Of a stretch of DNA of 64,000 bases, positions 49,722 through 60,621 are shown piece by piece. The position numbers and the translations under genes were made by a program. Below the pieces are notes generated by a model. It saw nothing but the letters and a program-made list of their open reading frames with translations. It did no database searches and was not told where the DNA came from. Within the stretch, counting starts at the first letter, position 1. Every line of letters begins with the position of its first letter. The stretch is from NCBI GenBank assembly GCA_037042185.1, contig JAXQJY010000028.1, positions 1,550,001 to 1,614,000 of the forward strand. Reading direction: 5' to 3'. This DNA comes from Sordariomycetes sp. S80-01Y. Lineage: Eukaryota; Ascomycota; Sordariomycetes.

Positions 49722-52234
49722 ATGGATCACGATACCGAATCGGAGCAGGCTCAGGGTGTTGACGACATAAGCGGCACAGGCGAGGCTGCCTTGGCATGCA
49801 ACTGCTGCCGCAGACGAAAGCTGCGATGCTCGAGAGAGGTCCCAACTTGCCAGCAATGCCGCAAGACAGGTATGCTGATGGGAGTGGGGCTAGAAATGAG
49901 GGTTAGTAGCTGATCTTGTGGGGGACAGGAAGTGAGTGCGTCTATGAGTCGAAGCGGGCCAAGCCGGGCATGAAAGCTGGGGCCATTGACAACTTGCATC
50001 GAAGATTGGGTGAGTGCACGTAGCTGCGGCGTAGTCGTCTCTGCCTCTGACAAATGCTCAAAGATGCCCTGGAGAAACTTGTTCATCAGCAGACGGACAG
50101 TGACACTCGCAGCGTACGATCAGGCGATGACAATGGAGGCGGTCACTACAACGTGCTCTCATTCTTCGCAAGAGAATTCCAGCGCTTCAACGAGTCCCAG
50201 GGAGCAGGCTCTTCCGCACAATCTGGCAGTACACCGTCCTCGAAAGTGGACGCCCCTCCAACTAAGCGGAGGAGACTTGACGAGGAGTTCGTGTACCAGT
50301 CTAAACCCGCTTCTATCATCGCTTCAATGCCAGACGACGACGAACTGAACCTGTTGCTAAAGGCTTACTTCGCTCATGTGCATCCATGGATACCCATGCT
50401 GCATGAGGCACGCCTACGTCGGCGCCTGGCTACGGACAATGAGCGCCAGAAACTGGGCGTCGTTATACGTGCCATGGTCCTCGTTGCCGCCAGATACATC
50501 CAGGATGATCAAGTTGCAAGAAGATTAACTATATCTGATGATCTGGCACAACAAGCCAGAGACGACATTGTGGCCACGGCGATGCGGCAGCTTTCAGTGG
50601 AAAATCTGCAGGCGCTCATCATGATGGCGTTCAATGACATCGGCGGCGGCCGAGCCGAAAACGCATGGCCTATAGTCGGTGCTCTGAGTCGCAATGTTGA
50701 GTATCTGCAGCTGGCTGTCGAAAGCGACGAAACAGAGCGCCATACCCTATCCCAGCCATTTGTCTCCTTGTCACCGCCAAGCGGATGGACTGAAGCGGAG
50801 GAACGAAGACGAGTCTTCTGGAACGCGTTCAACTTGGATCGTCTCTGCTCGGTCTCGATGGGTTGGAACACCAGCCTGACCTCGGACGATGTCAATCGAC
50901 GTCTGCCCTGCGATGGAATCAAGTGGCGCAAAGAAGATGAAGTCACGACTCCCTACTTCGGTATCTGGGACAAAGCAGCCGGCCGCATTGGCAACCCTAT
51001 CGCCTTCTTACCGTCTCATTACTCGGGTCCGCTGTCGTCAGGGGATGATGAAGGGCAGACGCCCTCTGACACGGGAACGTCACCAGGCGCTCCGTCGGCA
51101 CACATCGATATGTCCACAGTTGGTGCCTTTGCCTACTCTATTGAGGCTACCGAATCACTGAGCAGGGTGACGACGTACTTCTTGCAGCAACGAGTCAACA
51201 TGCGGGATCAGAAGGATTTAACTCGATGGCTGACCCGGTTCAAAGAGCTGGATCTTCGGCTGGTTCATTGGAAGATGCTCCTACCTCACAAGTGGAAAGT
51301 AGACACCTCCCAGCGATCTTCCAGGATGGATCCAAACCTGACCTTGGCACACATCACACACAATGCGTCGATGATTCTGCTGCACCAGCCGATTGCCTTC
51401 CCGCTTCCCGAATGGCCCTTCAAGAATCGACTTCCGAGCTCGTGCAGCGCCGACACCTGCGAGGCTGCTGCTGCTGAGATAGCGACCATCACGGAAAACT
51501 ACCTCAAGAACGCACCGCCGTCCGTGCCTGTAGCAAGCCAGTTCGCCTTCTGTCTCTATGTTGCTTCCAGGGCTTGTCTATTGCAGTGGCGCTACAACCC
51601 GAGAGAGCCGCTTGCGTCATCCTTTTGGTCGCTGATACAGAGTCTGGACATCATGTCGCGTCGATGGGCTGGCCCTCACGCCGTGCAACTAAACTTCCAG
51701 AACACGAACCTCGCTGCGAAGTACTCTGCTAAGCTCAAGGAGCTTTACCAAGCTTGTATGAGGAATTCGGCTTTCAAGGTCGATGTCCTTGGCTATATCG
51801 GCGAGGTGTCTCTGGCTGCTCCCTCAAGCACAGCTTCGGCTGCGCCTGAAGACCAGGAGCTAGACGAGGATAGCGACGTATCTCCAGGTGCTGAGGTTAT
51901 TCAAGCCCGGGATGGCGTTACGCGAGACTTTCCCCAGGTCCAGCAGTTACCGTCAAATAACTTCAACCTGAGGTCAAGACATCAATCGTTTGCGAATCCT
52001 CAGACAGCGCTCGATCTGGCCAACGACCAGAGACAAATGGCTGTGACTCCCGAGATCGCCACCAAGATGAACCCAATGCCACCGCCAAGCACCTACCACC
52101 GTGGGAGCGTCCCAAACGCAGACCTCGGTGCGATTTCACAGTTGTTGCTGGATCAACAGTTTGTCGACATGGACCGCATCATCAGCTATAATGATGGCAT
52201 GTTTGGAACGGAGTATGAAGGAGGCAGCTGGTAA
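49722..52234 (+). CDS. Zn2Cys6 transcription factor, putative regulator of the glucuronide cluster
   Basis: Three exons, 49722-49869, 49929-50009 and 50064-52234; 799 residues; introns 59 and 54 bases. The zinc cluster CNCCRRRKLRCSREVPTC, then QQCRKTGSEC, fits CX2CX6CX6CX2CX6C at about 26-54 and is completed by the first splice. A linker and a short coiled coil (DNLHRRLDALEKLV) follow, which may allow dimerisation. The fungal-specific transcription-factor domain is centred on about 190-420 (AYFAHVHPWIPMLHEARL; EEERRRVFWNAFNLDR-like WTEAEERRRVFWNAF). The C-terminus is acidic then Gln/Pro/Asn-rich. Only 65 bases separate its stop from that of the GH88 gene on the other strand, so their 3' ends may overlap. 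Its position makes it the natural candidate regulator; that is inference. Confidence 0.9.
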
Positions 52235-52299
52235 GAGGCGTTTACTCTATTCTATGTAAAAGACACGGTACGCCATGTCGTACACGGTGGTGTCCTCAT

Positions 52300-53859
52300 C
52301 TATGCAAGACCCATGTTCAACAATCGATTCCCAAACTCAACCAGATAGTAATCCGCATACACCAGCCCGTGGTCGGCGTACCGCCGGCGAGCGTTCTCAT
52401 TATTGTTGGCAGTGCCGTTCTTTAGCAAGCCGTCAAAATACTGTCCACGTACGTCGTCCTCAACGGCGAAGTTCTCTGTAGACCCAACCAGACGAGCTTT
52501 CTCCGCGGAGTAGCATAGGTCGACAGTATCTCTCACGATCTTGGTGGCGACCTCGAGGAAGTGGCGCGATAGGCCGTGTCTGCCGATTCCACGGAGAGCT
52601 TGAGATAGGATGACCATGCCGTTGGCGGCAATGACTCCCGCTGATGAGTCTCTCAAGGGATTTTCCTCGTTTACAGGGGCGTCCCAGTCCCATAGCGGCA
52701 CATAGCGCCCTGTTGTCCCTTTTGACCCTGAAGACTTGGGCGTTGTCTCAACGCACGCCGGTGATGTTTCGAGTCGGTACAGGAAATATTCCGCCACACC
52801 GCAGGCAGCGTCCAAAAACACCGTATCTTTTGTCCACATGTAGGTCTGAGCGTATCCGAGGATTGCCCACGACTGTCCTCGAGACCACGTTGACTCGTTC
52901 GAATACCCCTGGGCAGTCCAGCGCCACTTCATCGACCCTGTTTTCGGGCTAATGTTGGCCACGTGGCAGGTCGAATACAGCTGACCTTTGTAGCGCTGGT
53001 TTGGAAACGAGGCTGGTGATTCTGGCCGGAGGTGAGTGTCGAGAAGCGTCCTCGCGTGCGTTGTCGCTATCTCTGCGAGGCTCCGGTCGCCACAGTGGGC
53101 GGAGGCGTAGAACAGTAGGTCGAGGTTGCAGAGACTGTCAATGATGACGAGGTTGTTGTCACTCATGTCAGTGACGGCGATCTCTTTCTTCAGCAAGAGA
53201 TCCCAGCTTCGGATGGCCCCTGTTGAGGGTATGTATCGAGTGGCTAGACTCCGAGCTGCGTTGATGATGGAATCCAGGCTTCGTCGGTTACCGAACAGCT
53301 CCCAGTCGCGCTGGAGCGCTGGCATGACGATGAAACCAATGTCGTGAGTGTCTGTCCGGTTCGACATGGAATGCAGCGGATCTGACCATGCCCCGCAAAG
53401 GGATGTGAGATGTTGTCGAATACTTGCAGCTGCCATGCCATGACCACCTTGGATGTGGCGAGGGTGTTTGATGCTCCTCTCCAGAAGAGCGTACAAAGTC
53501 CCAGGAAAGAACCCGCATGTCCAGAACTCAGGTTCACGGAGGTCATACCGCCCAGTATGTGGCCCTCTCTGAGGGACCGTTTCAGGGAATCCTCGGGGTC
53601 TTCGTGCAGCATGGTCAGAATACTGGACTGTGTCCAAGCCATTGTCGGCAACTCGAAGACACTTAGCCAGAACATTCTCTTCGAACAACTCTGGGAGCGA
53701 TGACGGCAGCTCCCGTTGTTTCGAGGCCTCGGCAGACTTCGCGTCGAGATCTGGCCCATCAGACCAAGAGGTCTCACTGTCGTGCGCGCTGTGACCAGGA
53801 CTGTAATTCAGATCCCTTGAGACGGGCGAAGCGCTTGATGCACGCGAATGGGTGGCCAT
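52300..53859 (-). CDS. GH88 unsaturated glucuronyl hydrolase
   Basis: Single exon, 519 residues from the first ATG at 53859; the frame stays open a further 35 codons upstream without an ATG. The (alpha/alpha)6-barrel family signatures are clear: EFWTCGFFPGTLYALLE (111-127), HDIGFIVMPAL (172-182, with the Asp of the HD pair expected to be catalytic), WRWTAQGYSNESTWSRGQSW near 350, and SSAGVIAANGM near 425. GH88 enzymes hydrate the 4,5-unsaturated glucuronate that polysaccharide lyases leave at the non-reducing end of oligosaccharides, releasing the sugar. The N-terminus (MATHSRASSASPVSRD) has no hydrophobic signal, so the enzyme is probably intracellular. It is transcribed divergently from the MFS transporter and tail-to-tail with the regulator. 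Confidence 0.92.
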   Translation of the reverse strand: MATHSRASSASPVSRDLNYSPGHSAHDSETSWSDGPDLDAKSAEASKQRELPSSLPELFEENVLAKCLRVADNGLDTVQYSDHAARRPRGFPETVPQRGPHTGRYDLREPEFWTCGFFPGTLYALLERSIKHPRHIQGGHGMAAASIRQHLTSLCGAWSDPLHSMSNRTDTHDIGFIVMPALQRDWELFGNRRSLDSIINAARSLATRYIPSTGAIRSWDLLLKKEIAVTDMSDNNLVIIDSLCNLDLLFYASAHCGDRSLAEIATTHARTLLDTHLRPESPASFPNQRYKGQLYSTCHVANISPKTGSMKWRWTAQGYSNESTWSRGQSWAILGYAQTYMWTKDTVFLDAACGVAEYFLYRLETSPACVETTPKSSGSKGTTGRYVPLWDWDAPVNEENPLRDSSAGVIAANGMVILSQALRGIGRHGLSRHFLEVATKIVRDTVDLCYSAEKARLVGSTENFAVEDDVRGQYFDGLLKNGTANNNENARRRYADHGLVYADYYLVEFGNRLLNMGLA

Positions 53860-54528
53860 GACGTTTGGGAGTTTTGATAACAGCCGGGGACAGAAAGAAG
53901 GACCTAGCCAGAGAGAGGATACTTTGATACTACAGGATTGTTCGACAAATCGAGCCGGACGCAACTTATACCGAACTCAGACACATCAAGCTTGGGTCAT
54001 TTGTTATAACGGAGTATCCAACGGGTCCCGGAGTGACCGTGCCAACTGCTGCCGCAGGGAAGGCTCCTCAACCCAAACCAGTGTGCCGGAACGCAGGCCT
54101 ATGTGGCTCGGCCGTTATAGCCGGACATGCTGTCATCGATCCGCATGTTTAGATTGCTTCTCGGTGTACTTTGCCACGGCCTCGATAGGGACTACAAAAT
54201 GCGGACGGTCAATACTCCATCCCCCGTAAGAAATGTCCCGAAGTCGACCATCGCGCTACCCCGGACGACCCCACACCCTGCCGATCTATTGGAGACGAGG
54301 GACTTGCGGGGTACCTAGGCGGGCTGATTGACGGGGTTTTTTACTGTCTTTACTCTCGAGTGGTGGCATTACTGTTCGGCAGTAAGACGATCGATACTCT
54401 AGAGCTCAACCTGGCGAAGCTATAAAGACAATGGCGTATCTCATGTTCACTTACATCCCCCCGCCCCGACTTGCATGAGCCCATTCTTGTCCACGTCGAC
54501 ACTTCATTCTGAAGGGCTTTCCAGCACC
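53860..54528. promoter_or_regulatory. shared divergent promoter of GH88 and MFS genes
   Basis: 669 bases between start codons. A TATAAA lies at 54421-54426, 108 bases before the MFS start, and TATAAG on the minus strand at 53965-53970, about 110 bases before the GH88 start. Between them are several CGG/CCG triplets, including an inverted pair CGG-N5-CCG at 54029-54039, a CGGAG at 54010-54014 and CGGCCG at 54109-54114. Zn2Cys6 proteins commonly bind paired CGG triplets, so these are candidate operator sites. Binding by the neighbouring regulator is a hypothesis. Confidence 0.5.
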
Positions 54529-56489
54529 ATGGCAGAAAACAAAGAGACCGGCCAGCCCGTTGTTGGTCCGACAGATCTTCCCAGCAAGGAGGTCGACAAC
54601 CTCGGGCCTGAGATCAGGAACAGCATCGAGCATGCTAACGCCGTGGAGCCTGTCCCGGAGAAGTCCGTTGAGGACGGCAATGGTCAGGGGCCGGTGGTGA
54701 GCAGCTCTGCGGAGAACAAGCCTAAGAGGAGTCTTTGGGTTGCTTGGATGCATCTGTTCGATTGGTATCCAGGCCATTACTCCAAGGAGGAGAAGAAGCT
54801 GCTTTTCAAGCTGGACTGTGTGATCCTGCCCCTCTGCTGCCTCGCCTGTGAGTTGGGTTCTCGACAGTGGCGAGAGAGCATTTGACTAACAGGATACCTA
54901 GTCTTCATCAAGTGGCTTGACCAGGTCAACATCAACAACGCCTATAACTCCGGTATGAAGGAGGAGCTCAACCTGCAGGGCAACCAGTGAGAACCGCTCT
55001 CACCTCCACCAACACTCTGAACTGACAGTCCCAGATACTCGCTCTTCGGCACCTTCTATAATATCGGCTACCTGATTTTCGAAATCCCCTCCATGCTGAT
55101 CATCTCCCGTCCCAAGCTCGCCCGGTACTACCTCCCCACGATGGAGGTGCTCTGGTCCATCCTCACGTTTGCGCAGTGCAGGATCCGCAACGAGCGTGAC
55201 ATCTACGGCATGCGCTTCCTGCTCGGCGTTCTCGAGACTCCCGTATCTTCGGGATCCATGTACATCCTGAGCTCGTGGTACCGAGGCGACGAGCTGTTCA
55301 AGAGGGCCGGTGTGTGGTTTGTGAGCAGCAACCTGGGGAGCTTCATGGGTGGGTATCTGCAGGCTGGTGCGCATGCCGGTCTCAACGGCAAGATGGGCAT
55401 GTCTGGGTGGCGATGGCTTTTCATCATCGGTGAGTTCCTCTCTTTCCCCTCCCGCAAAGCTGCAGCTAACCCGGCCGAAGATGGTTGCATCAGTCTTCCC
55501 ATCGCCCTCGCCAGCTTCTTCTTCTTCCCGGGCATTCCCACGAGCCCCAAGGTCTGGTGGCTCAAGGACGAGGAGCACGAGCTCTGCAAGAAGCGCATGT
55601 ACGACGAGGGCGTCCGACCTAGTCGCAAGATCGGGAAGCGCATGCTCAGGCGCGTATTCAAGCACTGGCACTTCTACATCGCCGTTCTGACCTACATCTT
55701 GTGAGCCGGCCCGTCAGCCTAAATTCCATGTTGAATATGCGCGCTGATTACGATATAGCTTCCAATGCAGCTCATACGTTGCTGGTCAGATGATTCTCTG
55801 GCTCAAAGATGAGGCTGATCGCTTTGGCACGTGGACCGTTGAGGAGATTAACATGATTCCCACCGGCGTGCAGTGCATTTCCATCGTCTTTGGTATCCTG
55901 GCTACTTCGCTCGTCATGGTGTACCCTTTCTGGGCCGTCATGTCCTGCGTCGCCGGCGTTCTCGTATTTGCGAATGCCTGTCTCTTAGCTTGGGACATTC
56001 CTACGGGATTGAAATGTAGGAGCCTGTTCTTTCCCAATTACAAAACCTTGCTGACCATTTGCAGTTGCGGCATACTACATGCTAGGATTCAATTCCTGCG
56101 TGACACCCATTCTCTTCCCCTGGGTCAACGTAGTCATGAAGGACGACTCCGAGGCCCGCGCCTTTACCACCGGCGCGATGATGACGTTCGGCTGGGTCTT
56201 CTTCTCGTTCTGGCCCATCACCATCTTCCCCGTCCTTGAAGCGCCCAAGTGGCGCAAAGGCTACACCATCAACACGATCTGGGTCGTCATTTGGTGGGCG
56301 CTCTTCATGCTCGGTCAGTATCTGTGGAGGAGGGATTTGAGAGCCAAGAAGTTCGATATCAAGCTGGAGGAGGAGAGGGTGAGGGAGGCGGAGCAGGCGG
56401 CCATGAAGGGTGAGAGGGAAAGCATGGAACACGTCGAGGGGGACGAAAAGAACATTCAGGCGAAGACCGTCGAGGCGCAGAAGAGCTAA
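54529..56489 (+). CDS. MFS transporter, DAL5/allantoate-permease (organic anion) type
   Basis: Six exons: 54529-54847, 54902-54986, 55035-55429, 55481-55700, 55759-56015 and 56065-56489; 460 residues; introns 48-58 bases. The ATG at 54529 has a strong CACCATGG context; another in-frame ATG at 54475 would add 18 residues. After a polar N-tail come [36 protein letters not shown]-type helix 1 and a total of about 12 hydrophobic segments. Motifs include [12 protein letters not shown] and [18 protein letters not shown], typical of the Liz1/Seo1/Dal5 branch. Known members carry pantothenate, allantoate, nicotinate and similar carboxylates with protons. In this setting it probably imports uronate-containing saccharides. 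Substrate is inferred from neighbours. Confidence 0.9.
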
Positions 56490-56968
56490 GCACTGGTGGA
56501 TGCGAAGAGTCCAAATCGGAGTATTGTTCGGAGGGCCGGGTTCAGGGGCTCGCGACGGGAAAGGGGCTAAACCAAAGACGGACCGGCTGCAAGTAGCAAA
56601 GTTTTGAGACGAAGCCTCCGGAATCGGTGTTAGTCGCAGTGCTCTACTTGATTATGACTTGAACCGTGGTGAACTCGCTTACGGATCTAGATCAGCTCCG
56701 ACACATCTCCCGAAGCCCGATGCACAATGAGCGTCTTCCCCACACTCCAGTAGACTTCCACGCCTGACTACTCCGCATCTCGGCTCAGACCAGGGGCAGA
56801 AGCAGGCTCTCGTCGTCTATTTCAGCCTCTTGCGCCCAGGTCTTCTAGGTCCCAGCCCTCCATCGTTGGCAAAGCCGTTCCTGACAACCGCTCAACCCGT
56901 CCATTCCGCCCCGGCCTCGGCTCCGAATCCCCGACCCACATCTCCGGCTTTTCGGCTCCGGATTCAAG
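56490..56968. other. intergenic, MFS to DUF2264 gene
   Basis: 479 bases with the MFS 3' flank and DUF2264 promoter. No gene seen. Confidence 0.5.
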
Positions 56969-59049
56969 ATGGCCCCTCCGGCCTTCACCACTTCTCCCCT
57001 GAAGACTCGGGCGGATCTCATCGAGGCACTGAAGTCCATTGTAACGCCTATGGAGGCGTACCGCTCACCGGGGGGCGCCCGCGTCAAGGTCACGCCCGGC
57101 TCGTGCGCCGGCTTCGACGATGTCGCCGCGCAGGTGGAAGGCTTCGCGCGCCCGCTGCTGGGCATACACGCGATTCTCGACGACGATCAGCTCCTCGGAA
57201 GATGGATGAAGGGGCTCGAGAATGGAGTCAATAGGGACCACGCCGAATTCTGGGGCGATATGGGGGATTTCGACCAGAGGATGGTGGAGACGGAGAGCAT
57301 CTGCCTCGCCATCCTATGCTACCCGGACATCCTCCTCCCAAAGATCAGCGACAGGGGTAAGGAGGACCTCAAGACGTGGCTGCTCCAGATGAACGACCAC
57401 ACCATGCCGGCGCAGAATTGGCGCTGGTTCCGCATCTTCAGCAACCTCACCCTAACACAGTATCTGGGCGTCCCAGCGCCATCCGTTCAATCGGTGCTTG
57501 ACCTCGACTTCGACGTCCTGGATAAGTGTTACGTTGATCAGGGATGGTCGAGCGACGGCGTCTGGGACACGGGCAGCTGGGGCGAAGAGAGGCGGCAAGC
57601 GGACTATTACTCTGGCAGCTTTGCAATGCAATTCGCGCAGCTGCTGTACGTCAAGTTTGCGAAGGGCGACGAGCAGAGGAAGGAGAAGTACAAGCGTTGG
57701 GCGCAAGAGTTTGGGCGGGATTACTGGCGTTACTTTGACGTCGACGGTAAGCTGCCCCTGTTCGTTCACCGACAACCCTTGCTAACGAGTGAAAAGGGGC
57801 TGCCATTCCTTTTGGACGCAGCATGACCTATCGCTTTGCATTCGCCGCCTTCTGGGCCGCGGTCGCGGTAGCAGGGGTTGAGCTTCCGGCACCCGTCAAC
57901 GATCTCGGGACCATCAAAGGCCTCCTCCTTCGTCACCTCCGTTGGTGGTCTAGACAGCCAAACATCTTCAACGCAGATGGCGTCATGAACATTGGCTTCA
58001 CCTACCCCAACATGTACCTCGCCGAGGACTACAACTCACCGCAGTCGGTATACTGGTGTCTCAAAAGCATGCTCGTCCTGCTCCTCCCGGAGTCGCACCC
58101 TCTATGGCAGGTTGATGAGCTTCCCCATCCCATCGCACAGAAGGGCGTCGAGGTTGAAGCGTGTCAGACGATATGGCCAGCGAGGCAGATAGTGGACAGC
58201 TCGGCTGCGCATCACTACTTCCTGTCAGCAGGCCAGATGACAGTCGTACAACACAAGGCGAGGGAGGCAAAGTACTCCAAGTTCGCCTACTCTTCTGCCT
58301 TCGGTTTCAGTGTTCCCTCCACGGGCGGGGGGACGTTGGGGCAGATGGCACCGGACAGCACGCTGTGCATCAGCATCGACGGCGGGGACACGTTCAAGCC
58401 TAGGTGGAACACGGAAGACGCAGTACTGGACAGTGTCACCCTGAACGGGGAAAAGACTGATGCGCTCAGAGGAGTGTGGAAGCCGTGGAAGATGCTGGAC
58501 TTGGAGGTTGAGAGCACCATCGTTCCGCTGAGGGATGTCTACCCGGGCTGGCACATCCGCGTGCACAGGGTGAGCTGGACCAAGAGCGCAGAGGGCAGGC
58601 TCCTTGATGACAAGATCAAGTTGGTCGACGGCGGATTTGCGATACCAGCCTTGACCGAGGGCGGGTTCCACGTTCCCGAGCTCAAGGCCCAGGATGCCAT
58701 GACAGGGGATGAGGGCTGGTCCGCAGGAGCCGATGCCCTGGTCAAAAGCAAGCGCGGTGTTGGGGGCATCGTCGACTTCACGGAGGCTTTCGGCGAGGCT
58801 GCAGGCATAGACACGGAAGCTTTCGTGCTGAAGGCGGATCCGAACACGAATCTGATCTCGCCGAGGACGCTGATTCCCTGTGTGCGGCACACGTTGAGGC
58901 CTGGTGGTGGTGAGCAGAAGAGGGAGGCTTGGCTGGTGACGGGTGTCTTTGCCTGCTGTTCCAGAATCGAGACGGACCGAGCGATGAAGTTCTGGTCACA
59001 AAAACCAAAAGTGAGACGCGATGGCAGCGGCAGCATCAGAGTAGAGTAG
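56969..59049 (+). CDS. DUF2264 protein, putative GH154-type beta-glucuronidase
   Basis: Two exons, 56969-57746 and 57797-59049, with a 50-base intron; 676 residues. The N-terminal ~400 residues form a DUF2264 (alpha/alpha)-barrel: GFDDVAAQVEGFARPLLG (near 50), FWGDMGDFDQRMVETESICLAI, MNDHTMPAQNWRWFRIFSNL (near 150), DQGWSSDGVWDTGSWGEERRQADYYSGSFAM and FDVDGAAIPFGRSMTYRF across the splice. A beta-rich C-terminal region follows. As I recall, characterised bacterial DUF2264 enzymes are beta-glucuronidases, now CAZy family GH154. There is no signal peptide, which fits intracellular action on imported glucuronides beside GH88. The catalytic residues could not be fixed by eye. Specificity is inferred from family and neighbours. 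Confidence 0.87.
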
Positions 59050-59626: not shown

Positions 59627-60621
59627 ATGCCTCGACAGACCAGGCGCAGCGTCAAGGCCCGCGAGGCTGCGGCGTCGTCCGACGAGGACACCTCCCAGGT
59701 CGCAATGAACGGCAATGGCTCAGCTCATCACCAGCCGGAAGCCTCGGACGATGCGCCGCGTGAGAACATCTTCATGTTCTGGCCCAACATCATCGGTATG
59801 AATTGGCACGCATTCATCGTTGTAATCATGCAGTCAACTAACCGCGTCTCCTAGGCTACTCGCGCATCGTTCTCGCCATCGCCTCCCTCTACTACATGCC
59901 CCTTCACCCGCGCACATGCTCCGTGCTCTACTCCGTCTCGTGCCTCCTCGACGCTCTCGACGGCTACGCCGCCCGCATCTTCGAACAGTCCACCCGCTTC
60001 GGCGCCGTGCTCGACATGGTCACCGATCGCTGCACGACCTCGTGCCTCCTCGTCTTCCTGTCCTCGGCTTTCCCGCGCTGGGCGATCCTCTTCCAGGGCC
60101 TCATCGCCCTCGACTTCGCCAGCCACTACATGCACATGTACGCCACCCTCGTCGTGGGCGGAGTCGACTCGAGCCACAAGAACATCGACAAGAGCCAGAG
60201 CTGGTTGCTGAACATGTACTACACCAACAAGAACGTGCTCTTCACCTTTTGCGCGCTCAATGAGCTCTTCTTCATCGCCCTGTACCTGCTGTCCTTCTCG
60301 AGCCCCTGGATCTCGCCCCATCTGATCAAGAGCGTCGAGGAGTCGAGCGGTGCGCATATCGAGCCTGGTGCGCAGCTGAACAGCTCGATCCTGGGGCAGA
60401 TTTTCCCCGATCCCTTCAGCGCAGCTGCTCTTGAGATGGCACGCGCCAACAAGATGGACTCCTTCGTCCCTTGGGTGCTCGTTTCCATCAGCTTCCCCGT
60501 CATGTTCCTCAAGCAAGTCATCAACGTCATCCAGCTCGTCAAGGCCAGCAAGTGGCTCGCAGATGTCGACGTCAAGACGCGCAAGGCCAAGGGCTTGCCG
60601 CGGAAGGTCAAGGCCAACTGA
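59627..60621 (+). CDS. PIS1: phosphatidylinositol synthase
   Basis: Two exons, 59627-59795 and 59855-60621, with a 59-base intron; 311 residues. The CDP-alcohol phosphatidyltransferase motif DxxDGxxARx8GxxxDxxxD is complete: D89, D92, G93, A96, R97, G106, D110, D114. These aspartates bind metal and CDP-diacylglycerol. The enzyme joins CDP-diacylglycerol and myo-inositol to make phosphatidylinositol in the ER membrane. Membrane segments include IVLAIASLYYMPL, WAILFQGLIALDFASHYMHM and FVPWVLVSISFPVMFLKQVI. The N-terminal 45 residues are hydrophilic, longer than in yeast Pis1. The C-terminus is basic and cytosolic. Assignment is firm. Confidence 0.95.

Follow-up and report, generated by a model that had tools for sequence, protein, structure and literature searches.

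A fungal four-gene cluster predicted to use beta-glucuronides by dehydration and hydrolysis, and its paralogous GH88 modules

This study examined a stretch of 64,000 nucleotides of the genome of Sordariomycetes sp. S80-01Y, referred to here as the window (C11:1550001-1614000 of a genome with 30,874,049 bases in 16 contigs), and in particular four consecutive genes encoding a Zn2Cys6 transcription factor, a GH88-like hydrolase, a carrier of the major facilitator superfamily (MFS) and a DUF2264 protein. These genes probably constitute a cluster for the intracellular utilisation of beta-glucuronides, in which a terminal residue is dehydrated and then hydrolysed, and which has seven paralogous GH88 modules elsewhere in the genome. 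We regard as evenly balanced the broader proposition that at least eight uronate modules have been duplicating in this genome, with GH88 inherited in each together with a separate copy from a single Zn2Cys6 lineage and with varied carriers and depolymerases, and that three of them remove beta-glucuronide ends by dehydration plus GH88, instead of or beside a beta-glucuronidase. The new part is the eukaryotic pairing of dehydratase and GH88 and the paralogous, regulator-matched family; the enzyme chemistry and fungal clusters of carbohydrate-active enzyme (CAZyme) genes were already known.

The DUF2264 protein keeps most of a dehydratase active site

The gene at 56969..59049 on the forward strand (exons 56969-57746 and 57797-59049; 676 aa) encodes a protein with DUF2264 and DUF2264_C domains, formerly GH154, which is predicted to be a beta-D-glucuronate dehydratase. 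It matches PF10022 with an E-value of 8.9e-115 (384 bits, against a gathering score of 25) and PF20938 (DUF2264_C) with 2e-54. Three solved structures are related to it: 9o4u, titled 'Beta-D-glucuronic acid dehydratase' (BcGDH; 3.5e-12), 9nwf ('Glucuronate dehydratase') and 8oi4 ('Beta-galactosidase'). The initial annotation had taken DUF2264/GH154 for a beta-glucuronidase family. This assignment has been overtaken by Alvarez et al. (2025, PMC12269599). After further purification, BcGDH, classed as GH154, had no glycosidase activity, and the enzyme was found to dehydrate terminal glucuronic acid (GlcA), the product then being removed by GH88. The founding GH154 member, BT_3677, likewise dehydrates, on a substrate other than that of BcGDH; no hydrolase-like active site was found, and the GH154/DUF2264 family was proposed to consist of glucuronate dehydratases (Alvarez et al. 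2025, PMC12269599).

Ten active-site alanine mutants of BcGDH were inactive, namely those of E74, R78, N176, N177, W178, F181, Y229, R285, Y289 and Y354 (PMC12269599). The corresponding residues of the window protein are E57, R61, Q149, N150, W151, F154, Y214, R267, Y271 and Y338; nine of the ten are thus identical, Gln149 standing in place of N176, and all ten are identical in the C8 paralogue described below. BcGDH was aligned with four fungal paralogues and 14 of 22 prokaryotic relatives, eight Vibrio or Vibrionaceae loci being left out. Y229, R285 and Y289, equivalent to Y214, R267 and Y271 of the window protein, are identical in every aligned row, including L047, a row in which five other active-site positions are missing or different. 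Because these three residues are conserved, the published dehydratase mechanism finds its two tyrosines and its arginine in the window protein. The initial annotation had assigned one enzyme to unsaturated and one to saturated glucuronyl ends; since nine of the ten dehydratase residues are conserved, DUF2264 and GH88 are better read as consecutive steps. The view of DUF2264 as a parallel hydrolase was dropped as the leading reading on the strength of the results of Alvarez et al. (2025) and of the active-site alignment.

In the proposed mechanism, the MFS carrier would import a small charged sugar or conjugate capped with GlcA. A cytosolic DUF2264 protein would then strip water across C4-C5 of the saturated GlcA at the non-reducing end, yielding 4,5-unsaturated GlcA, as its active-site identity with BcGDH suggests; Tyr214 is the likely base and Tyr271 the likely acid, with Arg267 beside both. 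Cytosolic GH88, with Asp173 and Asp241, would hydrolyse the unsaturated residue, and also the unsaturated ends left by lyases, in keeping with its likeness to unsaturated glucuronyl hydrolases (UGLs). The Zn2Cys6 factor may sense the substrate and turn the gene set on, to judge from its linkage and apparent co-inheritance. By hydropathy and inspection of the N-termini by eye, rather than by SignalP, no signal peptide or hydrophobic N-terminal stretch was seen in the window GH88 or DUF2264 protein.

The GH88-like enzyme

The GH88-like gene (52300..53859, reverse strand) consists of a single exon encoding 519 aa. The enzyme has no match to Pfam PF07470 at E <= 1. It was recognised through solved UGLs, with 3wiw at 3.9e-25, 2zzr and 3anj at 1.6e-20 and 1vd5 at 3.3e-16. 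UGL chains also fill the top ten rows of a Foldseek search (best 1e-13), led by 3wiw, 'unsaturated glucuronyl hydrolase specific for heparin'; the structure model used, built from three sequences, has a low mean predicted local distance difference test score (pLDDT 53.7) and a predicted template modelling score (pTM) of 0.62. The Pfam search proposed in the initial annotation for both enzymes gave a match for DUF2264 and none for GH88.

D115 and D175 of streptococcal UGL align with D173 and D241 of the window enzyme, which are its candidate catalytic residues. We take D115 and D175 to be the catalytic pair of the streptococcal enzyme, the structure titles themselves naming only the mutants D115N (3vxd, 3wux) and D175N (3ani, 3ank). 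Equivalents of D173 and D241 are conserved in all eight fungal GH88 paralogues, that of C2 being joined by hand, and in five aligned prokaryotic GH88s.

Among the paralogues, those of the window, C8 and C10a do not match PF07470, while those of C15, C13 and C2 score 15, 24.5 and 25.6 bits, respectively, against a cut-off of 26.6. Even four prokaryotic proteins annotated as GH88 reach just 46-64 bits, and for this reason we consider that the profile suits this branch poorly. As the fungal branch is missed or under-scored, Pfam-based counts of fungal GH88 may be too low. PF07470 was rejected as a GH88 counter, as it misses the window gene and leaves the C2 copy below cut-off. Five genes of the genome exceed the cut-off; these are presumably of the related GH105 type. 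No fungal-type GH88 was found in viral contigs.

Paralogous GH88 modules in the same genome

Searching the 30.9 Mb genome with the window GH88 produced 12 matches at eight places, taken as eight GH88 genes. PF10022 gave eight matches at four places, and hence four DUF2264 genes. Three of these lie close to a GH88 gene, at 3.1 kb in the window, 0.5 kb in C8 and 3.2 kb in C10 (1.18 Mb). A homologue of the window regulator is present at all eight GH88 loci (gap 69 bp to 5.7 kb), as is a sugar or organic-anion carrier (gap 0.6-9.3 kb); the neighbours of the GH88 copies were scanned as 40 chosen open reading frames (ORFs). The regulators were ranked by the best single match per locus, 56 of 120 first-look candidates being scored. 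Elsewhere in the genome the best matches to the window regulator are those of C11b, C10b, C8, C15, C10a and C2, all six adjacent to GH88. The seventh, at C12:1847717, shows 27% identity and 97 bits, compared with 114 for C2.

The grouping of the four genes is very unlikely to be due to chance. Probabilities were calculated with a uniform model, with distances picked after seeing the data and with the clustering tendency of catabolic genes ignored. On these terms, at least three of four DUF2264 genes would lie within 5 kb of GH88 with a chance of ~1e-7. For at least seven of eight GH88 genes within 5 kb of a Zn2Cys6 gene the values are ~2e-8, 2e-6 and 1.5e-5 for 150, 300 and 416 genes, respectively, 150 Zn_clus matches having been scored of 416 candidates in the genome. 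Of the five PF14099 or PF05426 genes of the genome, three are no more than 15 kb away from a GH88 gene, and the chance of at least three being so placed is ~5e-6.

The regulator appears to be co-inherited with GH88, to judge from the sequence distances. The GH88 and regulator distance matrices correlate with r=0.80, a value reached by 117 of 40,320 permutations; the corresponding figures are 69 of 5,040 without C13, and 20 of 720 without C13 and the partial C8 regulator. C10a and C15 are grouped in both trees, each of which has only one well-supported inner branch, and C2 and C8 are joined in the regulator tree, not in the GH88 tree.

A compact paralogous set at C15:2307117-2316407 has four genes, for a Zn2Cys6 regulator, GH88, a Sugar_tr carrier and a lyase of family PF14099. 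The lyase (35 bits against a cut-off of 29.9; presumably PL20) lies 3.5 kb from GH88 and has a hydrophobic stretch after an internal methionine taken as the start. From its gene content, this set looks like a complete fungal uronate-glycan locus. The C8 locus comprises a Sugar_tr carrier, GH88, DUF2264, the regulator, a beta-helix protein and a PF05426 lyase. The last is the single PF05426 match in the genome, 7.6 kb from the C8 GH88, and both it and the beta-helix protein exhibit hydrophobic N-termini. No solved structure matches the C15 or the C8 lyase at E <= 0.1.

At C10:1177131-1186918 (C10a), a GH2 gene lies between GH88 and DUF2264 with the regulator behind, and a Sugar_tr carrier and GH10 are also present. 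The C-terminal exon part of this GH2 alone clears the cut-off of the NCBI beta-glucuronidase equivalog (558 vs 544), and its best PDB match is 5c70, 'Glucuronidase', which we take to be the Aspergillus oryzae enzyme acting on glycyrrhizin. Because a GH2 beta-glucuronidase sits between GH88 and DUF2264, the hydrolytic route and, by prediction, the dehydrating route are kept side by side at this locus. The remaining loci hold the regulator, a Sugar_tr carrier, GH88 and GH29, with a PF14099 lyase at 13.7 kb (C13); GH27, GH43, GH88, MFS, the regulator and GH28 (C2); GH88, the regulator and an MFS carrier resembling that of the window (C11b); and GH88, the regulator and a Sugar_tr carrier, with GH18 farther away (C10b). 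Two BNR_4 and two GH79C genes are present in the genome, all outside the GH88 regions.

In the region C5:412740-423240, genes for a Sugar_tr carrier and a short-chain dehydrogenase come after the fourth DUF2264 gene; a partner hydrolase is not evident there.

Regulator, carrier and surroundings of the window cluster

The gene models were made by hand as spliced reading frames derived from the sequence. They place the four genes, together with their family matches, where the initial annotation had put them. The Zn2Cys6 factor (49722..52234, forward strand; exons 49722-49869, 49929-50009 and 50064-52234; 799 aa) matches Zn_clus with 2e-07 and Fungal_trans with 2.3e-19. The MFS carrier (54529..56489, forward strand; exons 54529-54847, 54902-54986, 55035-55429, 55481-55700, 55759-56015 and 56065-56489; 566 aa) matches MFS_1 with 6.5e-23. 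Its best curated match is TIGR00893, a D-galactonate transporter (1.2e-35), at 123 bits, below the cut-off of 395; among solved structures, nothing was found other than weak matches to a melatonin receptor. The order of the four neighbours stands as first described, with the qualification that GH88 runs on the strand opposite to that of the other three. The region 53860..54528, between the divergent GH88 and MFS genes, is a candidate bidirectional promoter.

Housekeeping genes lie past both edges of the cluster, as had been noted: an orotidine 5'-phosphate decarboxylase (OMPdecase, PF00215; 45797..46927, reverse strand) on the left, and a CDP-alcohol phosphatidyltransferase (CDP-OH_P_transf, PF01066; 59628..60621, forward strand, of which only the exon 59842-60618 was tested) on the right. 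Farther away, an ORF at window positions 26437-27747 matches the terpene synthase family 2 C-terminal domain (PF19086, 5.2e-12).

Prokaryotic relatives

The 22 prokaryotic loci with DUF2264 relatives show 25-37% identity. This is too distant for a donor to be named, and an origin by transfer was set aside. A DUF2264 relative also occurs in 238 plasmid records, of which eight were inspected. GH88 lies near DUF2264 in Rhizobium N621, Rhizobium C104, Haloarcula GH36 and Natrinema 869, and immediately precedes it in Haloarcula GH36. In Rhizobium NZ_CP013499.1 (1-9821), heparinase II/III, an ATP-binding cassette (ABC) importer, GH88, YesL and DUF2264 adjoin.

Discussion

The initial annotation's picture of a glucuronide-directed, apparently cytosolic, transporter-coupled and regulator-linked cluster is borne out, as the combination recurs in the genome and similar sets occur on some Rhizobium and haloarchaeal plasmids. 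The term 'self-contained' was too strong, since the four window genes include no secreted depolymerase, unlike the C15 and C8 copies. Its likeness to a bacterial polysaccharide utilisation locus (PUL) is fair for the module family as a whole.

Several observations weigh against a cluster that dehydrates and then hydrolyses beta-glucuronides. The window DUF2264 protein and BcGDH are no more than distant relatives; the former contains a further domain that is absent from the latter, and its Gln149 occupies the position of Asn176. As the substrates of BcGDH and BT_3677 differ, substrate specificity is not transferable to the window protein. The C5 DUF2264 gene has no nearby GH88, and five of the eight GH88 loci have no DUF2264. 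In prokaryotes the two genes are loosely linked: of the 22 DUF2264 loci, five of which have shorter flanks, 2 have a GH88-like gene within 10 kb. Among 17 whole genomes, taken from 18 of the 22 loci with L052 left out, genes matching PF07470 and PF10022 lie within 20 kb of each other in seven, five of them Vibrio. Four of the eight plasmid loci inspected, for which the gene table is incomplete, have an annotated GH88 no farther than 8 kb away. With regard to the regulators, that of C8 was recovered in part, with no Zn cluster seen, and that of C13 is weakly similar and is outranked by loci without GH88. Across 60 gapped CGG/CCG patterns over the eight GH88 upstream regions, no convincing shared regulator motif emerged, several showing weak excesses. 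Many neighbours of the GH88 copies have no evident role in glycan use, among them an amidohydrolase and a P450 in C8; an indoleamine dioxygenase, an FAD oxidoreductase and a phosphoenolpyruvate (PEP)-mutase type protein in C11b; and ATG11 and a ubiquitin hydrolase in C15. Finally, no KduI was found in the genome, and the processing of 5-keto-4-deoxyuronate would fall to other genes.

The alternatives concern both the substrate and the chemistry. With the same two enzymatic steps, the cluster could act on small glucuronide conjugates, such as phenolics, steroids or saponins of plants or animals, for detoxification or as food. This is possible, though we do not favour it. In its favour, the four window genes include no lyase or other depolymerase, and the window carrier resembles TIGR00893, albeit below cut-off, and is nearest to the sugar-acid or organic-anion type, whereas the lyase-bearing C15 and C8 loci use Sugar_tr carriers; the best match of the C10 GH2 to 5c70 points the same way. 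However, those matching UGL titles that name a ligand or substrate concern fragments of heparin, glycosaminoglycan (GAG) or polysaccharide, and the window GH88 belongs to the same set of paralogues as the lyase-linked copies. It is rather unlikely that the substrate is another uronate, such as the galacturonate, iduronate or 4-O-methyl-glucuronate of pectin, xylan or mucilage, with glucuronate being just the family default. Pointing that way, DUF2264 has GH28, GH78, GH115 and an oligogalacturonate lyase among its neighbours on plasmids of haloarchaea, GH43 and GH28 occur close to the C2 GH88 and GH10 close to that of C10a, and a putative UGL of Aspergillus niger was down-regulated in araR deletion strains (PMC5617896). 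Nevertheless, the dehydratases measured act on beta-GlcA compounds (PMC12269599), the names given to the UGL structures are those of glucuronyl enzymes, and a beta-glucuronidase adjoins in one copy.

It is improbable that DUF2264 works in parallel with GH88, as a genuine beta-glucuronidase attacking saturated ends while GH88 attacks unsaturated ones. The title of the DUF2264 relative 8oi4 ('Beta-galactosidase') would fit a hydrolase, and GH154 is still tabled as exo-beta-1,6-glucuronidase in a paper on haloarchaea (PMC13260240), but the purified BcGDH lacks hydrolase activity, BcGDH and BT_3677 act as dehydratases and no hydrolase-like active site was found (PMC12269599), and nine of the ten dehydratase residues are conserved in the window protein. 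In addition, C10 already pairs a separate GH2 beta-glucuronidase with DUF2264, and a second one would be redundant. It is very improbable that the four genes are neighbours by accident and do not form a functional unit. Fungi possess many regulator and MFS genes, as the Zn_clus count given above illustrates; yet the combination recurs at eight loci, three of the four DUF2264 genes lie beside GH88, and the GH88-adjacent regulators head the ranking.

If the broader proposition of duplicating uronate modules is correct, a eukaryote would be seen for the first time to employ the dehydratase-hydrolase route, together with a fungal counterpart of modular PUL evolution. The glucuronate dehydratase/GH88 route, known from Bacteroides (PMC12269599) and inferred in haloarchaea (PMC13260240), would then extend from bacteria and archaea to a eukaryote. 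Fungal DUF2264 proteins, which are tallied as a glycosidase family in genome papers, would gain a likely function, and the fungus would maintain expandable, regulator-matched modules for uronic-acid glycans. The modules supply ready test sets of enzymes, regulator and carrier for finding the glycans that such fungi use.

Comparison with known systems

In the open-licence PMC literature, the dehydratase/GH88 pair was not found described for a fungus or any other eukaryote, nor was a paper mentioning DUF2264 found. Two fungal genome papers, in the portions available, only count or list both families, with two GH88 and two GH154 in Cercospora kikuchii and one of each in C. sojina. The CAZyme gene clusters of Trichoderma (PMC8672877) are likewise fungal and combine CAZyme genes with transporters and transcription factors; they differ in that 'GH88' is absent from the main text of that article, in the available part of which no GH88-centred, regulator-matched family was seen. 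The ulvan dehydratase P29_PDnc, acting with GH105 (PMC8511951), similarly supplies an unsaturated-uronyl hydrolase with its substrate by dehydrating a terminal uronate. However, it comes from a marine bacterium and, as stated by Alvarez et al. (2025, PMC12269599), has no sequence relationship with the GH154 family.

With regard to PULs, the four window genes include no SusC/SusD pair, the strict criterion in Bacteroidota, and have an MFS carrier instead. By a looser criterion they lack a depolymerase, while C15 has a lyase, a Sugar_tr carrier, GH88 and a regulator. PUL25 of Bacteroides caccae (BcPL35, BcGH88, BcGDH and BcGH109) resembles the window cluster in pairing a dehydratase, formerly GH154, with GH88. 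It differs in being a bacterial PUL, for which no Zn2Cys6 or MFS pairing is described in the relevant sections of the article (PMC12269599). The haloarchaeal GAG PULs, with a GAG lyase, GH88, GH154, an ABC disaccharide importer and, in one, GH2 (PMC13260240, 2026), share with the window cluster the proposed enzyme logic and import preceding cleavage, and their combination of GH2, GH88 and GH154 is that found on C10 of the fungal genome. In contrast to the window cluster, they are archaeal and plasmid-borne, with a sulfatase and an ABC carrier (PMC13260240). The Rhizobium plasmids NZ_CP013499.1 and NZ_CP092352.1 differ from the window cluster in having an ABC rather than an MFS carrier, no Zn2Cys6 factor, and heparinase II/III adjoining on the other strand. 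They nevertheless exhibit the same adjacency of importer, GH88 and DUF2264, and their GH88 can be aligned to the window enzyme at 27-28%. Among the loci inspected, this Rhizobium set is the closest bacterial likeness to the fungal cluster.

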